Part shown: piece after piece, positions 20,448 through 44,401 of the stretch
Position numbering within the stretch: position 1 is the stretch's first letter
Layout: each line of letters begins with the position of its first letter
Source of the DNA: a virus
IMG/VR virus record: IMGVR_UViG_3300027969_000161
Location: 1 to 45,139 of that record
Direction: 5' to 3' (one strand)
DNA: 45,139 nucleotides
The notes under the pieces: model-generated
The model's input: the letters and a program-made list of their open reading frames with translations, nothing else
Database searches by the model: none
What the model was told of the DNA's origin: nothing
Position numbers and translations under genes: made by a program

Positions 20448-20810
20448 ATGCAAGAGAAGAAACGCAAAGGTAAAACCGAGCAAATCAACGTCCGGATGCC
20501 CAAATCCGTGCTCGATAAGTTAGACCAAATGTCTGACCGAACAGGCTGGACTCGCACCAAACTGGTCACATTAGCGTGTGACAGGTTCACCAAGCAGTGT
20601 GACAACCTGCTGCACTTTGAGCCCGTACCCCTGACCCCTGAGCGCATAGAACTGCGCGAACGTATCCGCAACGTGTTCACTTGGACTGCCCAAGACTGGG
20701 TGAATTCAGGCTACCCCGATGGCGCAAGTGCAGGCCGTACACCTGATGACGCGTACCACAACCTGCTGGTGTTTCACAAATTCCGCCCGCACATCCCTGA
20801 AAACTACTAG
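20448..20810 (+). CDS. Ribbon-helix-helix DNA-binding protein
   Basis: A 120-residue protein. Residues 10-52 have the ribbon-helix-helix (Arc/CopG) pattern: TEQINVRMPKSVLDKLDQMS, a turn, then WTRTKLVTLACDRF. The basic N-terminus (QEKKRKGK) would help DNA contact. The C-terminal half (ERIRNVFTWTAQDWVNSGYP) is unknown. It follows the repeat array directly, so it may bind those repeats to regulate its own operon or replication. Confidence 0.75.
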   Translation: MQEKKRKGKTEQINVRMPKSVLDKLDQMSDRTGWTRTKLVTLACDRFTKQCDNLLHFEPVPLTPERIELRERIRNVFTWTAQDWVNSGYPDGASAGRTPDDAYHNLLVFHKFRPHIPENY

Positions 20811-21413: not shown

Positions 21414-21586
21414 GCAAAGCAAGTTGGATCGAGCTGACCCAGCTCCACGCATGGTGGAAATGGGGTGACAGACCAGTGGAGCAGGTGAGTGCCGCGCTTA
21501 GCGCCATGATCAAGTACGCATCCCCACGGGATGCTGAAACTATGCGGGATTACGCCAAAGAGTTTGGCATCCCCATCCACGCCTAG
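21410..21586 (+). CDS. Small protein, unknown
   Basis: A 58-residue helical protein with four Trp residues in the first 20 (WIELTQLHAWWKWG) and EQVSAALSAMIKYA later. It overlaps the previous stop as ATGA and has GGAGGAG upstream. It ends the first run of coupled small genes. Function unknown. Confidence 0.6.
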   Translation: MSKASWIELTQLHAWWKWGDRPVEQVSAALSAMIKYASPRDAETMRDYAKEFGIPIHA

Positions 21587-21634
21587 GGTAAACACTTAGG
21601 CTTTTTCACGTCTGCGTTAGTGTTAGTGCGTTAT

Positions 21635-21694: not shown

Positions 21695-23788
21695 ATGGTC
21701 ACACGATCATCACTCCCCACCCGCCTAGCGGAAGGCCGCATCTACAACGTGGCGTTACCTAGAGAAGAGATGCGCCTTGGGCGCAGCGCTGTACTGCGCG
21801 GCCCAGCACTCGAGCAGCAGTATCAGGTACTAGGAGGCGTACCCGTGCCGGTAGGTGCACCCAAGCGCGTGGAAGGTTCGGCTGGTAAGAAGGTAGTCGT
21901 AGGTTCTATCGTCTTGCTCGCTAGTGGGCGGGCGTCTTACATATCGGTGAACGCTGAGCTCAGCATGGCGCTCTACGGGGAAGCCAACCGCACCGGGTCT
22001 CACATACGTGTGCCCTCATACGACACCTACGGCGGCAAACTGTACGTAGTAACAGGCGTGAGCAGCGACGGCAAGTTGTTCTCCGTGGTTAGGCTATGGG
22101 AGCCGTACCGCTACGACGCTCGGTTGATAGTGGACTCAGGAGCTGGAACTGTCGGGATACGCGGCGGCGACACTGTGGCAGAGGTGCGCTCTAATACACG
22201 CCGCACCGTGGTAAGTGAGCTGGTCTCGCACTCCACCATGACACTGGCAAGGGCTTCACACATCCGCGGTGTGTTCTCGCCAAGCGCCCTGCCCCCCACA
22301 CTGCTCGAGTACATCAAGTCCGAAGCCAAGGGCCGCATCACTGACGCGATGTATAAACGCCTAGCCGACCTAGCGAACGCGCCACTGGAGAACTACCGAG
22401 CCATCCAGATTCTGGACCACCTGCGCCATGACAACAGGCTCACACGTGTGGCGCGCTGGGCGCACAAAGGTAAGTTTATTTCTAGACAGCTCAGTCGCGC
22501 TGCGAAATACGCTGCAGCCGGTGCACGTTCACGTGCGCTGGAGCCCCTCAACAATGCCCACACCACACTCTCAGAGGTGTGCCGCACTAACGTCGATACG
22601 ATAGTTAACGACTACGCCAAGCGCATCGGGCTGGGGGATTTATCCCGGGCTGGGTGTGGACACTGGCACGAAGGGTCGGCAACTACCTTGGTGCTCGACA
22701 GGTACGGACGGACGGATACCTACTGCCCCGCATGCACGTCCAGCTACGGCGTGAACGCTGTGTTGGATGACGGTACTACGGCGATGGTGCACAACAGCAA
22801 CCACCTGCACGACTGGAGCGACGGTACTAGGAGAATGGCGCGTGAGCCCGGCGTCATCGGCGGTCGGCACTCCGGCAAAGGTATCGTGGGGTTCATAGAG
22901 CCACGTGTCAAGCGCGAGATCGGCAGCTACCCCACACTGGGGCTGGAGCTTGAGATGCAGGCGTACAACAACACACCGCGAGAGGCGGTCGTGCGTGAGA
23001 TGCGCAACAGGTTAGCTAACGTGTTATCCCCCCAAGAGCTGCGCCGCTACGTGCACTTCGAGGAGGACGGCTCCACGGGTATCGGGGGCGTAGAGATGGT
23101 CACGGGCTACACCGACCTGCACACTCACAACATGCTGCTCAAGAAACTCCTGTGCACCGACGAGGGCAAGCCAGCATGGGCGGGCAGACTGCGCAGCCAC
23201 GATGCGTCCGGTCAGTCTTGCGGTATCCACGTGCACATCCAAAAGCCCAAGAGCTTGATACATGCGAGCCGCATGCGCTACTTCATCAACGCCGCAGCTA
23301 CTAAAGAGTTAATTACCGACGTGGCACGACGCTACAACGTCCACTACGCCAAGATTAACAACTCGCTAACAGCAGCATCACCCGAGAAAGCCGCGTCCGC
23401 GCAGCTCAAGAACTTCAAGGGCTACGACACCCGTGCGACCAAGGAGACTCAGACCCGTGCACTCAACCGGTTCAACACCGACCGCTACGAGGCGCTGAAT
23501 TTCCAGAACCCGAGGACAGTGGAGTTCCGCCTGTACAGGGGCAGCATGATGCACGAGACGGTCATGGCATGCATGGAGCTCACCCAAGCGGTGTACGAGT
23601 ACACGCAGTTCCGCACAGCGGGTATGCCCACAGTGCCCGGGTTCATTGACTTCATCAACGCCGCAGACCAAGCCTCTACGACTAAAAACTTGCGCAACTA
23701 CCTGCACAAGAAAGGCTGGAGCGAGGTGCGCGTGGCGAAGGTGCGCAAGGAAAAGCTCGAGGCTGAGACAGCTGAGCTGGCAATTTAA
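21695..23788 (+). CDS. Amidoligase-like (COOH-NH2 ligase) protein with zinc ribbon
   Basis: A 697-residue protein. Residues 1-160 form an unassigned beta-rich domain and 170-310 a helical region. Residues 321-347 give a probable zinc site (CGHWH, then CPAC). The C-terminal part (about 410-690) has the motifs of the glutamine-synthetase-fold amidoligase family (PF12224): GLELE (416-420), EEDGS with GVEMVT (456-470), CGIHVHI (509-515) and TVEFRLYRGS (608-617). Such enzymes join a carboxylate to an amine using ATP. The next gene, a glutamine amidotransferase, could supply ammonia. The substrate is unknown. Confidence 0.75.
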   Translation: MVTRSSLPTRLAEGRIYNVALPREEMRLGRSAVLRGPALEQQYQVLGGVPVPVGAPKRVEGSAGKKVVVGSIVLLASGRASYISVNAELSMALYGEANRTGSHIRVPSYDTYGGKLYVVTGVSSDGKLFSVVRLWEPYRYDARLIVDSGAGTVGIRGGDTVAEVRSNTRRTVVSELVSHSTMTLARASHIRGVFSPSALPPTLLEYIKSEAKGRITDAMYKRLADLANAPLENYRAIQILDHLRHDNRLTRVARWAHKGKFISRQLSRAAKYAAAGARSRALEPLNNAHTTLSEVCRTNVDTIVNDYAKRIGLGDLSRAGCGHWHEGSATTLVLDRYGRTDTYCPACTSSYGVNAVLDDGTTAMVHNSNHLHDWSDGTRRMAREPGVIGGRHSGKGIVGFIEPRVKREIGSYPTLGLELEMQAYNNTPREAVVREMRNRLANVLSPQELRRYVHFEEDGSTGIGGVEMVTGYTDLHTHNMLLKKLLCTDEGKPAWAGRLRSHDASGQSCGIHVHIQKPKSLIHASRMRYFINAAATKELITDVARRYNVHYAKINNSLTAASPEKAASAQLKNFKGYDTRATKETQTRALNRFNTDRYEALNFQNPRTVEFRLYRGSMMHETVMACMELTQAVYEYTQFRTAGMPTVPGFIDFINAADQASTTKNLRNYLHKKGWSEVRVAKVRKEKLEAETAELAI
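23017..23026. repeat. TAACGTGTTA palindrome inside the amidoligase gene
   Basis: An exact TAACRYGTTA site within coding sequence, one of six found. Confidence 0.5.
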
Positions 23789-23808
23789 CTAACTGAAAGG
23801 AACTAATT

Positions 23809-24906
23809 ATGTGTTTACTTATTGTTCAAGACGCTCAGACCAACTTCACGGACGAGCACCTACACGACTTCTACTCACGCAACCGCGACGGTATAGGAGT
23901 TATGTGGTCGGAAGACGGACAGCTGTGCTACGAGAAGATGCTCCCCGCGTCAGCTCAAGAGTCGGTAGATTTTTACAACCGAGTGGCGCGTGGCAAAGTG
24001 TGCGCTGTGCATTACCGCATGAGAACTCACGGAGATATCGACTATGAGAACTGCCACCCCTACGAGGTGTTCGGGTTCGACAAAGAGCACGAGATGCCCA
24101 TGCTGCTCATGCACAACGGTGTGCTGCACACAGGTAACGCCTCCGACAAGACCAAGTCTGATACGTGGCACTACATCCGCAACTACCTGCACAAGTTGTT
24201 GGCAGCAGACCCCGCGCTGGCTTTCACGCCCGAGTTTAGTGACTTGATCGGCAGACACATCGGCTCTAACCGGTTCGCCATCATGAACAACCTTGGGCAG
24301 ATCGCTGTGATCAACAAGCAGCAAGGCGTGACGTTCAACGGGGCGTGGTTGTCCAACGAGTACGCATGGAGCTCCACTAAGTACCTACCCCGCAAGGTGT
24401 ACACACAGAGCAGCTACGGTGGGTGGAACTCTAAGACAGGTAAATACGAGGGTGGACTGCACCACCCAAAGTCACCGGCCAAGACGGTGGCCACGACGCC
24501 CAAGAGTACGTCCGCTGGTGGGAAGAAACCCAAGACACTCAAGACGTACCAACCTCAGACCCCCCTATACCCGGATGGCCTCCCGAACCCAAAGATAAAT
24601 CCATATAACAACTGGACCAACGGGGTCGGCACAGACTGCGACTGTCTAGAAGACCTCATCGAGGTGTACGAGATTGTTTCGGATATTTACCCCGAACACT
24701 GCACCACCATGAAGCAGCTCGAGTGCATGGCCGAAGAAATGGGTATCACCAAGCTGTACTTGGCAGCAGAGGTGCTAGGAGAAGGACTGATGAGCGAGCA
24801 GTCGTGGGACACGCTTACAGCCAGCCGCGTAGAAATGCGCCACTTCGCCAAGCAACCCATAACCGACTGGTATCCCGACCGAGCAACTAAAGCCCTGATT
24901 ATGTAG
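23809..24906 (+). CDS. Class II glutamine amidotransferase
   Basis: A 365-residue protein beginning MCLLI, so removal of Met would expose Cys as the N-terminal nucleophile of an Ntn hydrolase. Further class II amidotransferase marks are HYRMRTHG (residues 68-75), MHNG (101-104) and SDT (117-119). These enzymes release ammonia from glutamine for a partner. Residues 200-270 are a Pro/Lys/Thr-rich linker and the last 90 residues an unassigned helical domain. No synthetase domain is fused, so the amidoligase 20 bases upstream is the likely partner. AAAGG precedes the ATG. Confidence 0.85.
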   Translation: MCLLIVQDAQTNFTDEHLHDFYSRNRDGIGVMWSEDGQLCYEKMLPASAQESVDFYNRVARGKVCAVHYRMRTHGDIDYENCHPYEVFGFDKEHEMPMLLMHNGVLHTGNASDKTKSDTWHYIRNYLHKLLAADPALAFTPEFSDLIGRHIGSNRFAIMNNLGQIAVINKQQGVTFNGAWLSNEYAWSSTKYLPRKVYTQSSYGGWNSKTGKYEGGLHHPKSPAKTVATTPKSTSAGGKKPKTLKTYQPQTPLYPDGLPNPKINPYNNWTNGVGTDCDCLEDLIEVYEIVSDIYPEHCTTMKQLECMAEEMGITKLYLAAEVLGEGLMSEQSWDTLTASRVEMRHFAKQPITDWYPDRATKALIM

Positions 24907-25072
24907 GGGGTTCATAGCAGCACGCTGGCGAACATTGAAGGTGCATCTGCCAGACCCAGCGTGGAGTGCATGGAGTCCCCCTTGCAACAAATACTTCTGC
25001 GCTCGCCTTTCTTACCTTGCGCCGGGCAAGGAATGCACACCCCGGCACCTTCATATCTAACAAGGAGTTGAC
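24906..25072 (+). other. Intergenic region with several complementary arms
   Basis: CACGCTGG (24921-24928) pairs with CCAGCGTG (24956-24963), inside an outer G5/C5 pair (24906-24910 and 24977-24981). CCTTGC and GCAAGG (25015-25031) form a second hairpin. GAAGGTGC (24937-24944) is complementary to GCACCTTC (25045-25052), so the loop of the first could pair beyond the second. It does not read as a tRNA. The region may be a structured RNA or a leader controlling the DUF6876-like gene. Confidence 0.4.
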
Positions 25073-25444
25073 ATGGACACCAACACATTTAAATCTGCGT
25101 ACAGCGAGTTCCGCAATGGGGCCAACGAGTTCTACAAACACTGGGCGCAAGAGTCGTTCCACTATTCGGACGGGGTTAAAGCCTGTGCGGACGCGGGATG
25201 CCACTGGTTACTAGACGTTGCCGCCACTGAGCTACCCGCAGTTCTCAAGGACAAGGACGAGATGCTCGGATGCTTACACGTTAGTGTCCAAGACAGTAGC
25301 GCCAAGCTGTACATGACGGGCGGCGCAGACAAAGTGTTGTGGGAGCGCTCCGTGCCCTACACCGACATGCCCGATGGGGAGTGGATGTTCTACGTGGCAG
25401 ACGAACTTTACCGCCGCGCCATGATTCTGCCCTCTGAGTATTGA
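25073..25444 (+). CDS. DUF6876-like protein
   Basis: A 123-residue protein with the pattern I associate with DUF6876: ANEFYKHWAQESFHYSDGVK near residue 17, then DAGCHWLLDVAATEL, and a later half with LHVSVQDSSAKLYMTGG. The family has no known function and is found in phages and mobile elements. AAGGAG precedes the ATG. It follows the amidoligase and amidotransferase genes and could take part in the same process, but the 166-base gap weakens that link. Confidence 0.65.
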   Translation: MDTNTFKSAYSEFRNGANEFYKHWAQESFHYSDGVKACADAGCHWLLDVAATELPAVLKDKDEMLGCLHVSVQDSSAKLYMTGGADKVLWERSVPYTDMPDGEWMFYVADELYRRAMILPSEY

Positions 25445-29242: not shown

Positions 29243-29250
29243 GAGTGAGT

Positions 29251-29919
29251 ATGGGAGTCGTAAGAGATTTAACCGGGTTAACAGTCGGTAGATTAACCGT
29301 TACAAGGCTGTCGCATATCGGGGAGCGAAACCGAAGGTACTGGAGGTGCGAGTGTCAGTGTGGGGGTGTTAAGGTGCTGAAGTCTGACGCTATAACATCG
29401 GGAAAAACGCTGTCGTGCGGCTGCTTGCACTTAGAACGGGCTAGGTCTTTTCGACGTACCCACGGTGCTACCGCAGGGGGCGCGTCAAGAACGTACCGTA
29501 TATGGTGCGGTATGAAGGCTCGATGCGACACCCCGACAACCACAGGATTCCCGAGTTACGGCGGTTCGGGGGTTACATACGACGCCCCGTGGGCGGAATT
29601 TAGTTCGTTCTTAGAGGATATGGGCGAGTGTCCGTCGAGCAAGCATTCACTAGACCGAATAGACGGTATCGCGGGGTACTCCAAGAACAACTGCCGCTGG
29701 GCAACTGCGGTAGAACAGACTCGGAACCAACGTACAAATATCACCGTCGTTGTAAGGGGGGTCAAGCAGTTAGCCCGAGACGTTGCGGCATCTAACGGCA
29801 CACCACTGCCAACATTCAAAAAAAGGCTGTACACGTACCGGTGGCCTGTGGAACAAGCCTGCGGACTACTGCCTAGAGTTAAGGGCGATATCGCTAACAG
29901 TTACGGCGCGGCTAAATAG
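29251..29919 (+). CDS. HNH-type homing endonuclease with zinc ribbon
   Basis: A 222-residue protein. Residues 1-75 contain a four-Cys region (RCECQCG, later SCGCLH). The nuclease part has YRIWCGMKARC, YGGSGVTYDAPWAEF and SLDRIDGIAGYSKNNCRWAT with EQTRN, a well-known pattern of phage HNH-family homing endonucleases. The ATG at 29251 is favoured because AGGAG lies 5 bases before it; a GTG at 29245 is possible. Placement directly after the polymerase gene is typical of homing endonucleases that target conserved replication genes. Confidence 0.85.
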   Translation: MGVVRDLTGLTVGRLTVTRLSHIGERNRRYWRCECQCGGVKVLKSDAITSGKTLSCGCLHLERARSFRRTHGATAGGASRTYRIWCGMKARCDTPTTTGFPSYGGSGVTYDAPWAEFSSFLEDMGECPSSKHSLDRIDGIAGYSKNNCRWATAVEQTRNQRTNITVVVRGVKQLARDVAASNGTPLPTFKKRLYTYRWPVEQACGLLPRVKGDIANSYGAAK

Positions 29920-32645: not shown

Positions 32646-32707
32646 TTGTGACGAAAGTTGTGACGGAGACCTCGTGTCACACTGGATGTCACACTCAATG
32701 TCACACT
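32646..32707. repeat. 12-base periodic repeats upstream of integrase
   Basis: Two TTGTGACG copies (32646 and 32658) and three TGTCACACT copies (32675, 32687 and 32699) are each spaced exactly 12 bases apart. The two words are related as inverted GTGAC/GTCAC elements. They may be binding sites for PrtN, integrase (arm-type) or another regulator. Confidence 0.7.
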
Positions 32708-32718
32708 GGAGAACACAC

Positions 32719-33774
32719 ATGACAATTCGCAAGAGAGGCAGTTCATGGCAAGCAATGGTTCGGGTGAAACTCGAAGGTCAGCAGTACGAAGAAACAAGAT
32801 CGTTTGCCACGGAACGTTTAGCAAAAGACTGGAAGCAGCGAACCATAGCCTCGATCAAGATCAATGGCATACCGCAACGCGTCAAATCATCCATGACGCT
32901 CGGTCAGTTATTGCTGGATTATCAAACCGCAGTCAACGAAGTCAAGCCTATGCGCAGACAGATGAACTGGGAGATCGAACAACTTAGCGAGGAGTTTAAA
33001 GATGCAAAACTCAACCAACTTACCCCCAAAGTTTTCTCCGACTTCGGGCGCAGGCGAACTTCTGACGGCGCTAGTGGAGCCACCATCATGCACAACCTCG
33101 CAACAGTCAGGGGCGTCCTCAATGCTGCAAAACCAGTATTGGGGGTCGATGTCAATGGAGACACAGTTAGCGATGCAATCAAAGCTCTGCAACGAATCGG
33201 AGCAGTCTCGAAAAGCCAGAGCCGAACGCGACGCCCATCTGGCGACGAACTCGTGGCCCTACGCAGGGAGTTCCACCGACAAGCAGGACACCCCCAAACG
33301 CTACTCCCGATGGAGGCCATCATGGACTTGGCTGTCGCACTACCGAGGCGCTTGGGCGAACTTACTGAGATGCTGTGGACTGACTACACAGGCGAGCAAA
33401 TCACCCTCAGAGACACCAAGAATCCGGTAGCCCCACGCACCGAGGTCATCCCTGTACCACGTGATGCAGCAGATATCATCGACACCCTGCCGAAAATAGA
33501 CGCTCGAATACTGCCGTACAAAGCAGAGTCCGTTGGAGCAAGCTGGCAGCGTGCTTGCGGTCGCTTGAAAATTGTGGACCTGCATTTCCATGACTTGAGA
33601 CACGAGGGCATCAGCAGGTTGTTCGCCGCCGGGCTTGACATTCCTGAAGTCGCGTTGATCTCCGGGCACCAGAGCTGGGCCATGCTCAAACGATATACAC
33701 ACCTAAAACCAAGCACTGTTTTAGAGAAACTAAGTGCAAACAGAAAAGCAACTCCGAGCAAGGATGAAACATGA
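32719..33774 (+). CDS. int: Tyrosine recombinase (integrase)
   Basis: A 351-residue tyrosine recombinase. Counting from the ATG at 32719, the catalytic set is complete: R210/R211 (LPRRLGEL), K234 (RDTKNP), H291-DL-R294 (HFHDLRH), H317 (SGHQSW) and Y326 (KRYTHL). The N-terminal 60 residues are a basic arm-binding-like domain and the following region a core-binding domain. GGAG stands 8 bases before this ATG. A start at 32674 would run through the repeats and is less likely. It can integrate or resolve phage DNA. No attachment site can be named. Confidence 0.92.
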   Translation: MTIRKRGSSWQAMVRVKLEGQQYEETRSFATERLAKDWKQRTIASIKINGIPQRVKSSMTLGQLLLDYQTAVNEVKPMRRQMNWEIEQLSEEFKDAKLNQLTPKVFSDFGRRRTSDGASGATIMHNLATVRGVLNAAKPVLGVDVNGDTVSDAIKALQRIGAVSKSQSRTRRPSGDELVALRREFHRQAGHPQTLLPMEAIMDLAVALPRRLGELTEMLWTDYTGEQITLRDTKNPVAPRTEVIPVPRDAADIIDTLPKIDARILPYKAESVGASWQRACGRLKIVDLHFHDLRHEGISRLFAAGLDIPEVALISGHQSWAMLKRYTHLKPSTVLEKLSANRKATPSKDET

Positions 33775-40600: not shown

Positions 40601-40749
40601 ACATCGCTGCGCTGACCCGGGAGACCGGACAAGACCACAGCGACGCTCTCAACCTCCCCTCAAATGTCGTGGCAATCCCTCGGGCAAGCTCCGAAGAACC
40701 AGCCGAGGTTAGAGAGGCCGAAAGTACGGCGGTCAGTTTGACGACGTAG
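37630..40749 (+). CDS. Primase-helicase fusion (AEP-like primase plus DUF927-like ATPase)
   Basis: A 1039-residue protein. The N-terminal primase part (about 1-220) has YLDLDAG (D84, D86) and LISSGEGLHLYWVL (H133), the signature of archaeo-eukaryotic primase/polymerase folds. Residues 240-345 form a PriCT-like helical region with Cys C314, C324 and C327 (TCTE, KCESC). The C-terminal half (about 560-800) is a P-loop ATPase with QDGGRGKTA (627-635), GFDEMGN and a downstream Arg, in the DUF927/superfamily 3 style. It probably primes and unwinds DNA for the family A polymerase. Its last 17 bases overlap the opposing gene. Confidence 0.8.
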   Translation: MLESFYRDVLPAEGNFALWNKLTKKNIWFSSQEELLEATQYAVEDEAQGVYFATATFNDQAVINGDKDARTQANVAGKKCFYLDLDAGEKKLAKHGPDKVYETQRHALADFVAFTKDTGLAPTYLISSGEGLHLYWVLGESVDVATWTATAKRLSRLFKQYGLKEDSAVTADSARILRPIGTMHENGTVVRALTRRGPEYTYEGFRTAVSNLLDDEFEDAPPRRERDSSINKEVMIEGPPKSIRKIAVKCEAMADAIRARGNVEEPYWRAMLGIIKHTVEGDKAAHAFSSGHPDYDRADTQYKMDNWKTGPATCTEFSKYSKKCESCPSRGKVKSPITLGYMNDAEVEKLPEEQKPAPPAPPAPTGSPWDGAIPAGFEVKNGTLIYHMPVQRKGEDGEYHTGHETVPFTRDIFWVAQWTDAEHSDDRAGADLHKWSQGRVVAFHMDQEAAADSFSLLKFLGRMSIHTLHTTDQAKAAKAMTAYAKASLDMIKSLPARQKVNDRFGLFINESGELRCAQGEYLIEASGEISRAIVGPKLRALSDHFHIQLPYSATGKWEPSVWDTDIIPKAKRHVAYMKESYAVKGREKYQLAAMLGLASPLMAFVTGEYTRGNRLPKNGLSVSLYSQDGGRGKTAVIESAMLAYGMPSALNENRDEQGSTALGRIAELSTRGTLPIGFDEMGNTPAATYASLTSAIANGASRIRASKDGGLVVGVPWALIALFGSNKSARDMIAAASGESNAIQFRLIELDFDHQPDFSAEQQEEHKARWAAVTDCAGALGAVIHLRICQIGVAGINKLVSDCVSKAKASLKETEQAGRFQYRALGAAMALQVILKNVGLDMFEWSDLLAEFQNAHDKGISYTVENTLPSDGLALLNMALHDLTSNTAVTQDETRRTRHITKYDDPLVPVPQVVHARHIVGTRRTYVSSGALRDWCASRKVSFTKVINAARDANVIVSVYASRGDGKAQAYNLLKGMRGSTESMVSCYAFDIAALTRETGQDHSDALNLPSNVVAIPRASSEEPAEVREAESTAVSLTT

Positions 40750-43700
40750 GTACACCACGCTGGAGCTTTTTCTCCCGCTGGTCTCTGTTTTGTGGGGCTT
40801 TGAGTAGGGTGGACAGCGGTTGACGCTTGAGCAAATCGTTCGAGTCGTTAAACAAATACCGCAGGTTGTCCTTCCCTGCTTGAAGCTCCATGAATTCTTC
40901 CCGAGCCTCAGCCATACCCTGAGAGTCGCCATCCCGCACGGCGTTCACGTAGTCCCGCGTGATCTCTTTGCTGCGGTTTTGGTAGAACTGTCCAATCTCA
41001 TACTGCTGCCCACGCAGCCAGTCCATCCGCTTGAGTTCTGCACTTGGCAGACCCAACGCATCTAACGCCAACGCCATCCCGTTGATGTCGTCTGGCCGCA
41101 CCATCAAATCCCCATTCTTTAACGTGTACCCATCGTTGGCAATACGAAACGCCTTGAGCACATCTGCCGGGCCTTTGGGCATAAACTTTTCAACCGACTT
41201 GTAATACTCACCTTGGCGCATCAGACCTACGCCGTCGGCAAACTTGCTGGCTTGGGAAAACGCCGGGCCACCCAACACCCCCGCTGCAGTCTTAGCCAAG
41301 CCCGACGCACTGGTCAGGTCAAACTCCGTGTAAGGTGCGATTGAGAAAATCTTGTCGTCGCCCAGCTTGGACGACATGTCCAGACCGATCATTGACAGCG
41401 GGCCCTTCAACAGCATGTTTGCCAGATCGTCGTCTCCAATCCACTTGCGCAAGTCACGCTCTAAATCCGGCGGCTCATCGCCACCCCCCATCGCGCCAAA
41501 CACTCCACCGACCAAGTTCATCAGCGGCAGACCGAGAACACCTGCAGCCATGCTGGTGTGGAACATCTTGTAGGCCAACATGCGCCTACCGATAGCCTTT
41601 TCTTCGGGGGTCGCACCCTTAAACGCTTGCATAAACGCCTTGACGTACAACGCCCCCATCATGAACTGGTACTTGCGGTACTGCACCATCGGCTTGGGCA
41701 ATTTCTTGAGCAGGAGCGGCGAGCCCATACGAGTGAAGTCGCCTTGAGTGGACTCCAGCATCCGAATAGCGTAATCCTCGGGACTACCCCTGTCGTTCTG
41801 AGCAGTCTTTTTCTCCACCGCCATCGTGTACGCCGCAGTTGCAGCGGCTATGCGGTTCCACGCCTCAATCGTTTGTGAGATTTTCCGCAGCTTGTTCAGC
41901 GCAGAGCTCGCAATATTAGACGCGCCGTCCAGTGCACCATACCCGGTACGCATACCCTCCAGCCGGGTCATGTCTGAGTCCATGCCGATGTCCAGCAGTC
42001 CAGCGTCCATTGCGTTTTGTAGTGTTCTACGCAACCCCTCGTCTTTGACGCGGCTCAAGTCCATGTTATCGCCAGTACCCACCTTACCAATCGTCTCGTA
42101 ACCTCTCATCAAGTGTTTCCAAGCGCCAAAGTAATCATTAAAGTCAGACGCCAGCTTGGGCAGCGACACCATGAAACCCTGAGTCATGTTGGTCACGTGG
42201 TAACCCACACTGGTAGCGAGCTGAAACGCACTCGTGCCCGCCATGATGGCGTCTTGAATTGGAGTTTCCTTGTAGTTCAGGCTGTCAGCGTAGTGGTCAG
42301 CGGCAATGTTCACTGCATCTTGGTACTCACGCTTACCCGTCTTCTGGTTACGGGCTTGGTTGTTCATCTCCAAAAACAAACTGCTGATCTTCTCGCCGTG
42401 CTTAATGCCTGAGATAAATCCCGCCTCTGCACGAGCATGGGACAAGAACGAGCGCATCATGTCTTTCTCAAAGCCAGCAACCCCTTGGCGTTTAAGGTTA
42501 GACGTTCTCGCATTCTGCTCATCAAGCGTTTGCAAGTACATGTCTTGCAGCATCTTTTCCATTGCCGTTCTGGAAGACTGCGGAACCGAATCGTTCATCT
42601 TGAGCGCAGCCATGATCTTTTCCATCATCTCAGGCTTCATCATTCGCCCCTCGTCCACACGTACGGCTTTATTGAACGAGTCAGACCAACCGTAAGCAGG
42701 TTCATTGATACGGGCAAACTCCGCCGCCTGACCCGGGGTGTCAAAAGTAGCTGCCACGAAATGCTTGGAGTCTTTCTTCAACTCTTCCACCTTTTTGGTG
42801 TCACCCGCTGCTTCTGCGTCGCGCAGTTCCTGAGATTTCAACAGAGCCACGTGGTCGCCGAACCGCTTAAGTGGGGCGTAGGGGCCGTCCAACATACCGG
42901 ACTTGGTGAAAAGCCCGTCAATTCCCAAAGCTTTCAGTGCCTTTTGTTTCTCACGGCGCATCAAATCCCCATGCTCAAACACCGCTTCGGCCACCGCACG
43001 CTCTGCCGGGTTCAAGCCTCGGTGTCTCTGACCCATTGCAGGGTCAACTTGGGCGTTGGGTTTCCACGCGGGCACATAACCCCATTTTTGGGACGTTGTG
43101 GCATCCGCCAGATAGGCGCTGACGCGGGCTGATTCTTGTGGTTTTAGCTTCTCGTAGGCCGAGGCGATTTTCTCGGCACCCTGTTCAAGCTGGCGGCGCG
43201 TGGCAGCAGCTGCGCGAATCTCGTCGTACCAGCGACCCATAGACTGTACCGTGCCTTTGTACATATCCACAATATCGTGTAGACCCATCATGTACAGCCC
43301 GGCTTTTTTGGCATAGAACGCCGCATCGGTTGCAAGGCGAGCACCGGAGGCCCCGGCTCGGTCCCTAAACTCTTGGTTCAGCCGGTCTTCAAGACCGCTG
43401 CGCTTATCTCCGAACCTAGGAGAACTTACAGGTTGAAGCCCGGCCTTGCGAATGCTTTCCGAAAATCGTCTTTGCGGAGTGAGCGTTTGTCCAGTTCCGC
43501 TATTTTCGGATTCAAGGGCTTCGTATTCTGCTTCTGCTTGTCGGCGTCCTTGGCTTGCGTTTCGGTCTCTGTTGGTTTTTGCGTCATTGATAACTCCTTG
43601 AATGAATTTTCCCAGATTTGGCGTCAAAAGGCTAGTGCCCGAAGGCCCCGTGGCAACGGCCCACAACTGCGCAATCAGCTCTTCCGCTTGCCGACCCTCG

Positions 43701-44401
43701 TCCACATACTCAAACGGGTATGACAAGATAGCGCCAATGTTGGTATTGGTGTCCGCTACTTTGCGGGCTTCTGACTTTAGGGAGCTCGTTAAAAGTTTGG
43801 CGTAAGCGCGAAGTCCTGTGGGGCCCAGCGCCCCGTCCGCCAAGTGACCCAGCTCGTGGCGCGTAGTAAATGCCGCGTCGCTGTCTTTATTAAGAGTTTG
43901 TCTGGCGTACCAAAGCTCCACTTCACCTGTCTCGCGGTTAAACCATACCGCACCGTTACCATCAAAGTCCCCTTCCGCGATATATATCTGGTCTACTTGG
44001 TCCATTAGTCCGCCCACACCAGCGGCATCCAGCTGATCAACGCCCGTCTGAACTCCGGGGTTGTCTTTTAAAAACTTGGTAATGTCAGTGACTCGAGTGG
44101 TGCGACCTTGGTAGTCTCCCGGGATACCGTAATTCCCCGACTGACCCCAGTCGTACGTTTTCTGCACTGCAGCAGGTGCAGCTTTAACCTCGGTCTCTTT
44201 TAACTTACGCGCTAACGCGTCTTGAACCGCGCTTTGCAGTTCTTTCAGTTCCGACACTTGGTCTTCCGCAGCCATTGCATAGTCGCGGTTGATGTCGCCA
44301 GAGCTGTACTTTTCCGCTAACGCGTCGAGTTTCCCAATGTCCGCCACGCTCAAGTCTGAGCTCTGGTAGCACGCTGCTTTGCGTTTTGAGGTTCTAGCCA
44401 T
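40733..44401 (-). CDS. Polyvalent protein: zinc metallopeptidase and PLxRFG domain
   Basis: A 1222-residue protein on the leftward strand. Residues 150-250 hold a zincin-type metallopeptidase: TTRHELGHLADG (H182, E183, H186) with a possible third ligand in EYVDEGRQAEEL. Residues 505-520 carry PYAPLKRFGDHV, the PLxRFG signature of large phage polyvalent proteins. The remainder is long and helical. Such proteins are thought to be packed in the virion and injected with the DNA to act on host defences or cell machinery. It runs head-on into the primase gene with 17 bases of overlap. Confidence 0.75.
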   Translation of the reverse strand: MARTSKRKAACYQSSDLSVADIGKLDALAEKYSSGDINRDYAMAAEDQVSELKELQSAVQDALARKLKETEVKAAPAAVQKTYDWGQSGNYGIPGDYQGRTTRVTDITKFLKDNPGVQTGVDQLDAAGVGGLMDQVDQIYIAEGDFDGNGAVWFNRETGEVELWYARQTLNKDSDAAFTTRHELGHLADGALGPTGLRAYAKLLTSSLKSEARKVADTNTNIGAILSYPFEYVDEGRQAEELIAQLWAVATGPSGTSLLTPNLGKFIQGVINDAKTNRDRNASQGRRQAEAEYEALESENSGTGQTLTPQRRFSESIRKAGLQPVSSPRFGDKRSGLEDRLNQEFRDRAGASGARLATDAAFYAKKAGLYMMGLHDIVDMYKGTVQSMGRWYDEIRAAAATRRQLEQGAEKIASAYEKLKPQESARVSAYLADATTSQKWGYVPAWKPNAQVDPAMGQRHRGLNPAERAVAEAVFEHGDLMRREKQKALKALGIDGLFTKSGMLDGPYAPLKRFGDHVALLKSQELRDAEAAGDTKKVEELKKDSKHFVAATFDTPGQAAEFARINEPAYGWSDSFNKAVRVDEGRMMKPEMMEKIMAALKMNDSVPQSSRTAMEKMLQDMYLQTLDEQNARTSNLKRQGVAGFEKDMMRSFLSHARAEAGFISGIKHGEKISSLFLEMNNQARNQKTGKREYQDAVNIAADHYADSLNYKETPIQDAIMAGTSAFQLATSVGYHVTNMTQGFMVSLPKLASDFNDYFGAWKHLMRGYETIGKVGTGDNMDLSRVKDEGLRRTLQNAMDAGLLDIGMDSDMTRLEGMRTGYGALDGASNIASSALNKLRKISQTIEAWNRIAAATAAYTMAVEKKTAQNDRGSPEDYAIRMLESTQGDFTRMGSPLLLKKLPKPMVQYRKYQFMMGALYVKAFMQAFKGATPEEKAIGRRMLAYKMFHTSMAAGVLGLPLMNLVGGVFGAMGGGDEPPDLERDLRKWIGDDDLANMLLKGPLSMIGLDMSSKLGDDKIFSIAPYTEFDLTSASGLAKTAAGVLGGPAFSQASKFADGVGLMRQGEYYKSVEKFMPKGPADVLKAFRIANDGYTLKNGDLMVRPDDINGMALALDALGLPSAELKRMDWLRGQQYEIGQFYQNRSKEITRDYVNAVRDGDSQGMAEAREEFMELQAGKDNLRYLFNDSNDLLKRQPLSTLLKAPQNRDQREKKLQRGVPTSSN

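Follow-up and report, generated by a model that had tools for sequence, protein, structure and literature searches.

A virus record of 45,139 bases (IMG/VR IMGVR_UViG_3300027969_000161, positions 1 to 45,139; called the window below) carries on its plus strand a glutamine synthetase (GS)-fold amidoligase of 697 residues (21695-23788), followed after 20 bp by a stand-alone class II glutamine amidotransferase (GAT) of 365 residues (23809-24906). The two genes belong to an already known phage enzyme pair, in which the long N-terminus and the zinc site of the window ligase are specific to its branch. With a probability of roughly 0.6, we consider the pair to be one functional unit, a glutamine-dependent two-subunit enzyme that amidates a carboxylate and is used early by phages for the purpose of conflict. 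A preliminary description, made from the sequence alone, had proposed such a pair together with a third gene at 25073-25444, and its gene coordinates and the 20-base gap are exact.

Phage amidoligase/amidotransferase pairs were reportedly noted by Iyer et al. in 2009, a work that is cited here through other papers, and we know of no product of such pairs, nor did we find one in the literature. Beyond predictions, our literature search found no tested function or defence role of amidoligases. In its minimal form of two genes, the pair is widespread, it is near-obligate as a unit and its active sites are intact; the Polynucleobacter strains and OM43 phages MEP401 and MEP402 that carry it are cultured, which offers material for a search of its target.

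Active sites and zinc ribbon

Residues 498-633 of the ligase match the Pfam family Amidoligase_2 (PF12224; E 2.5e-9, 37.8 bits against a curated cut-off of 22), and the protein also matches phrog_2443 “amidoligase enzyme” (E 4.9e-7). In its AlphaFold (AF2) model, confidence is high between about residues 400 and 680, with pLDDT of about 90 or more in the catalytic domain, and poor before residue 240. Using Foldseek, the model was matched to GS (E 9.3e-5), GmaS and then, more remotely, the Pup ligase PafA and Dop, with E-values from 9e-5 to 5e-3; the TM-scores are low because the whole chain was used as query. The ligase profile found no match among PDB sequences. Residue conservation was summarized over 52-64 non-redundant pairs. 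The active-site motifs (22940-23629, plus strand; 53-64 rows) are G416-x-E418-L-E420, E456-x-D458-x-S460, E467, C509-G-x-H512-x-H514, R546, R597, N602 and E610-x-R612, in which E418, E420, E456, D458, S460, E467, C509, G510, H512, H514, R546, R597, N602, E610 and R612 are invariant or nearly so among 64 pairs, non-redundant at 90%. Mapped by motif rather than by superposition, these residues would be the metal ligands and the phosphate or substrate ligands of GS. The window ligase has the metal-ligand motifs of Amidoligase_2 and the GS-like catalytic fold, the latter as the preliminary description held, and the setbacks it had allowed for, a missing GS-like match or the loss of catalytic residues in relatives, did not occur.

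For the GAT, the single window sequence falls below the threshold of PF13230 (E 0.02, 14.2 bits against a cut-off of 23) and has no match to PF13522, while 50 of 53 relatives match PF13230 at E<=0.1, the best at 1.3e-6. In the PDB, the profile of the family recovers PurF (E 0.007). The AF2 model is confident for residues 1-190 and for the helical C-terminal region (280-357), and its Foldseek matches are the glutaminase domain of GlmS (E 7.9e-6), PurF and EgtC. All 64 GATs start with M1-C2, and the invariant positions are C2, N25, G28, G30, M32, K43, H68, R70, T73-H74-G75, N81, H83, P84, H102-N103-G104 and D118. By motif, again without superposition, this set would comprise the class II nucleophile and the glutamine-binding residues, and the fold is of the N-terminal nucleophile (Ntn) type with the glutamine-binding Arg (R70), Asn-Gly (N103, G104) and Asp (D118). 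From profile, fold match and invariant residues, the protein is best described as a divergent class II glutamine amidotransferase with predicted glutaminase activity, in agreement with its first identification.

The zinc site noticed earlier in the ligase is also real. A ribbon at about residues 312-350 (22628-22744, plus strand; GCGHWH ... YCPAC) lies directly ahead of the catalytic domain, and nearly all relatives have it in the form C-x-D-C ... C-x2-C, often followed by an acidic linker and by an invariant histidine (H392). In the alignment of 53 rows, C321, C344 and C347 are present throughout, and column 319 is Cys in 50 and Ala in the window. The window and two other loci, L086 and L008, have lost this first ribbon Cys and carry G-C-[GN]-H instead (GCGHxH ... 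CPAC in the window). These three form a supported branch (98/92), whose ligases are about 690 residues long compared with a family median of 469. Residues 1-300 are partly of low confidence in the model, and most relatives do not have that much N-terminus; clear similarity was seen only with L086, and the N-terminus of L008 aligns weakly with both. The N-terminal 400 residues, once taken as a possible substrate-binding part, are therefore not one single domain and split into the family-wide ribbon and the branch-specific region 1-300. Both the conserved zinc ribbon beside the ligase domain and the long branch-specific N-terminus are new in this analysis.

Linkage of the pair in viruses and bacteria

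Protein queries led to four records of named phages, with five matching places between them. Alignments made from these then gave access to the family in IMG/VR; scans of viral contigs with single sequences found no relatives, and alignments were needed as queries. At least 524 GAT relatives and at least 254 ligase relatives were collected, and 80 of each were kept. Among the GAT-selected viral loci, 79 of 80 have the ligase just upstream on the same strand, and the sole exception begins at a contig edge. The GAT is the next gene downstream in 54 of 61 further loci selected by the ligase, and in the other 7 the contig ends within about 140 bases of the ligase. The gaps are mostly 2-80 bp; that of the window contains the ribosome-binding site GAAAGGA (23796-23808, plus strand) ahead of ATG-TGT, and in L008 an 802-base stretch with small open reading frames (ORFs) separates the two genes. 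Pairwise distances of ligases and GATs are strongly correlated (Mantel r 0.91, a value reached in 0 of 1000 permutations), to which shared descent contributes. Conserved order, invariant active sites and matched divergence show that the linkage is more than chance and that the pairing is near-obligate, as had been expected from the preliminary description.

The pair was also found in the named phages MW202733, MEP401 and MEP402. A terminase-type gene lies divergently upstream in 34 of 64 viral loci, and DnaB-like primase-helicase or polymerase genes lie downstream in phages, which puts the pair at the start of a rightward unit; from this layout, early expression would be expected. An ATP-grasp gene related to that of phage StenR_269 was observed 3' of the GAT in 5 non-redundant loci (including L133:10837-11607), indicating that the minimal pair grades into a larger cassette.

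In GTDB genomes, 435 relatives were found and 80 were kept. About 73 of these 80 loci have the GAT beside the ligase in the same order, 33 recognised by hidden Markov model and 40 by motif in the next gene; 3 of the remaining 7 leave no room for a GAT. The loose motif occurs in 6 of 544 other ORFs and the strict one in 2 of 544, and the strict motif adjoins the ligase in 59 loci. In L168:5173-7218, ligase and GAT read as a single ORF, in which an internal GGGAG site precedes ATG-TGC; this ribosome-binding site suggests separate translation, and the locus was not used as evidence of fusion. Plasmid carriage of the pair was not found at the sensitivity used.

Three Polynucleobacter isolates (L147-L149) carry copies nested within the viral clade, flanked by a tyrosine integrase and a relaxase/TraG/LPD7 transfer region. 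Two of these isolates have SIR2 and HerA as the next two genes after the pair (L148:10078-14506; L149:9682-14137, PADLOC E 7e-85 and 1e-183). For more distant copies, Gabija GajA and GajB lie just upstream on the opposite strand in Collinsella sp. An7 (L171:5407-8945), and a pAgo and its partner, together with a TIR protein and a restriction-modification enzyme of type IIG, adjoin the pair in a metagenome-assembled genome of Ignavibacteriae (L192:11601-18599). Other neighbours are a type IV restriction endonuclease (L152), a type III methyltransferase (L163), an AriA-like ATPase (L160) and the candidate system PDC-S06 (L168). A PADLOC scan at 1e-10 of 14 loci, leaving out L147-L149, L152 and L192, gave 154 families for 86 flanking proteins, compared with 46 for 85 control proteins drawn from other parts of eight of these genomes, among which the best E was 3e-39. 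The enrichment of defence genes beside bacterial copies is suggestive. We did not find this company of SIR2-HerA, Gabija, Argonaute and restriction genes reported in the literature searched, and the possible link to anti-phage islands that it raises is the part worth following.

Proposed function and its alternatives

In the proposed mechanism, removal of Met would expose Cys2 of the GAT as the N-terminal nucleophile, which would convert glutamine into glutamate and ammonia. The GS-fold ligase would bind Mg-ATP and phosphorylate a carboxylate, and ammonia would displace the phosphate to give an amide. The zinc ribbon, with the long N-terminus in the branch of the window, probably positions a macromolecular or peptide substrate. 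In phages, expression of the pair would begin early after infection, and in some integrative elements the pair is an item of cargo. Most likely it serves in conflict, against the host or against phages in competition: a component of the host cell, for example a peptide of the peptidoglycan or the side chain of a protein, may be capped by an amide. Both where the pair sits in phages and which genes accompany it in bacterial elements fit such a role. The logic of an ammonia donor beside a ligase, put forward in the preliminary description, agrees with the predicted families and folds and with the linkage, and from these we infer a physical complex, ammonia transfer, amidation, early expression and the conflict role.

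Several points weigh against this reading. The GAT also resembles EgtC, a hydrolase of gamma-glutamyl amides, and ammonia donation is a prediction. The defence signal is modest, with PADLOC E<1e-60 in 5 of 20 bacterial loci and 0 of 19 control regions from some of the same genomes; the case proteins were partly hand-picked, the gene calls are crude, and the control was not matched for mobile elements, which carry defence genes generally. Furthermore, ligase and GAT match none of the families of PADLOC-DB.

The resemblance to EgtC leads to the main chemical rival, in which the ligase joins glutamate to an amine, as GmaS and PuuA do, and the GAT removes it again as an EgtC-like hydrolase, controlling polyamines or a modified metabolite. 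GmaS is indeed among the best matches of the ligase model, and for the GAT model the match to EgtC is about as good as that to PurF. However, the conserved R70, THG, HNG and D118 are the set of glutamine-binding class II domains, and if a hydrolase reversed the work of the ligase within a near-obligate operon, a trigger of its own would be required. We regard this scheme as doubtful. Amidation of peptidoglycan for superinfection exclusion is a sub-case of the amidating two-subunit enzyme with the target named: the D-Glu or meso-diaminopimelate carboxylate of the stem peptide would be amidated, as by MurT-GatD and AsnB/LtsA in other bacteria, and the altered wall would block entry or lysis by other phages. 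For related podovirus cassettes, the literature already proposes a change of the cell wall that acts against superinfection (PMC5498523; PMC10580990), including phiEco32 as cited in PMC10580990 and PMC11318856, so the idea of phage self-protection in the preliminary description is already in the literature for these relatives. MurT-GatD is an established case of a two-gene unit that amidates the wall with glutamine (PMC3267633). Yet genes for gamma-glutamyl cyclotransferase (GGCT) and a second GS-like enzyme were found in no locus of the family, the ATP-grasp gene is restricted to the 5 loci above and is not in the window, and a ligase acting on precursors would not be expected to have a zinc ribbon; this target is a tentative suggestion, held by us at minority strength.

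The pair might itself serve as a system of defence against phages, or of anti-defence, and travel between phages and integrative elements. The SIR2-HerA, Gabija, pAgo and restriction-modification neighbours and the nesting of the Polynucleobacter copies within the viral clade speak for this, whereas the sample is small, the control is imperfect, the three copies from Polynucleobacter count as a single lineage and no defence gene was recognised beside that of L147; we find it rather unlikely. It is equally speculative that the zinc-ribbon amidoligase and its GAT form an undescribed two-gene system of immunity or host control, borne by phages and elements, which would amidate a host or viral macromolecule to block competing phages. 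Improbable in our view is a modification of DNA or nucleotides, in which a carboxylated base or nucleotide would be amidated and phage DNA protected. The pair adjoins the replication module and the ribbon could bind nucleic acid, but among the window proteins searched, which do not cover every ORF, none was recognised as the product of a base-carboxylating, hydroxymethylating or thymidylate-type gene, and copies in integrative elements replicate as host DNA. Least credible is help to nitrogen metabolism during infection: despite the GS fold, the use of glutamine and the listing of the genes as auxiliary metabolic genes in the OM43 phage paper (PMC10580990), a glutamine-consuming unit assimilates no nitrogen, and the ribbon and variable N-terminus suggest a specialised target.

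Surroundings in the window and known systems

Structural genes, among them an SU10-like portal, occupy the minus strand of the window up to about 18.4 kb, and beyond this a rightward unit contains polymerase, exonuclease, integrase, helicase and primase genes. A terminator-like hairpin (GCCTAGG...CTTAGGC followed by TTTTT; 7 pairs, consensus scan) lies at 21581-21608 on the plus strand, just upstream of the ligase gene, and suggests that the pair opens its own transcription unit; the count of terminator-like sites in this region is not above that of shuffles. The third protein (25073-25444, plus strand, 123 residues) is a DUF6876 protein as first described (PF21781, E 3e-20, 72.8 bits against a cut-off of 27). 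The supposed three-gene cassette was rejected, since DUF6876 is near the pair in only 8 of 64 non-redundant viral loci (the window, L123, L085, L038, L032, L033, L044 and L008), usually upstream on either strand, and directly 3' of the GAT only in the window and L008. No match to DUF6876 was found in the phage records searched, and it is an occasional neighbour outside the core pair.

A ribbon-helix-helix/HicB-like regulator (20448-20810), upstream of the pair, and an integrase (32674-33774) suggest that the virus is temperate. Searched with four integrases as query, the 64 viral loci show an integrase with the pair only for the window and for MW202733, and an integrase was rejected as a general partner. 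The HNH endonuclease at 29245-29919, immediately 3' of the DNA polymerase gene, is likely a homing endonuclease, and a protein of 1222 residues (40733-44401, minus strand) that matches the DarB-like antirestriction family phrog_10089 (E 2e-33) is a candidate polyvalent protein.

Among known systems, OM43 phages MEP401 and MEP402 and Podoviridae sp. ctgrD200 (MW202733) share both families, their order, a Cys-rich region before the ligase domain and a Met-Cys GAT with the window. They differ in sequence (GAT 23-34% and ligase 18-26% identical), and the ligase of the window is set apart by a long N-terminus of its own and by a changed zinc site. The cassette of LUZ24, PaP3, tf, phiEco32 and StenR_269 likewise places an amidoligase and then a class II GAT near replication genes. 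However, it consists of GGCT, COOH-NH2 ligase, GS-like, ATP-grasp, amidoligase and GAT, four or more enzymes beyond the pair, and its amidoligase and large GAT align only weakly with the family of the window; the small GAT1 of StenR_269, in contrast, can be recognised as a relative. Using the StenR_269 proteins in phmmer, no GGCT, GS-like COOH-NH2 ligase or ATP-grasp was matched in the window, and membership of this cassette was rejected. MurT-GatD and AsnB/LtsA work in a similar way, amidating carboxylates with glutamine by a ligase and a glutaminase, but their ligase folds are unrelated, GatD is a class I glutaminase and AsnB is a single chain. Glutamine synthetase, GmaS and PafA share the catalytic fold and the metal-ligand motifs, from which the window ligase is distinguished by its separate glutaminase partner and its zinc ribbon.

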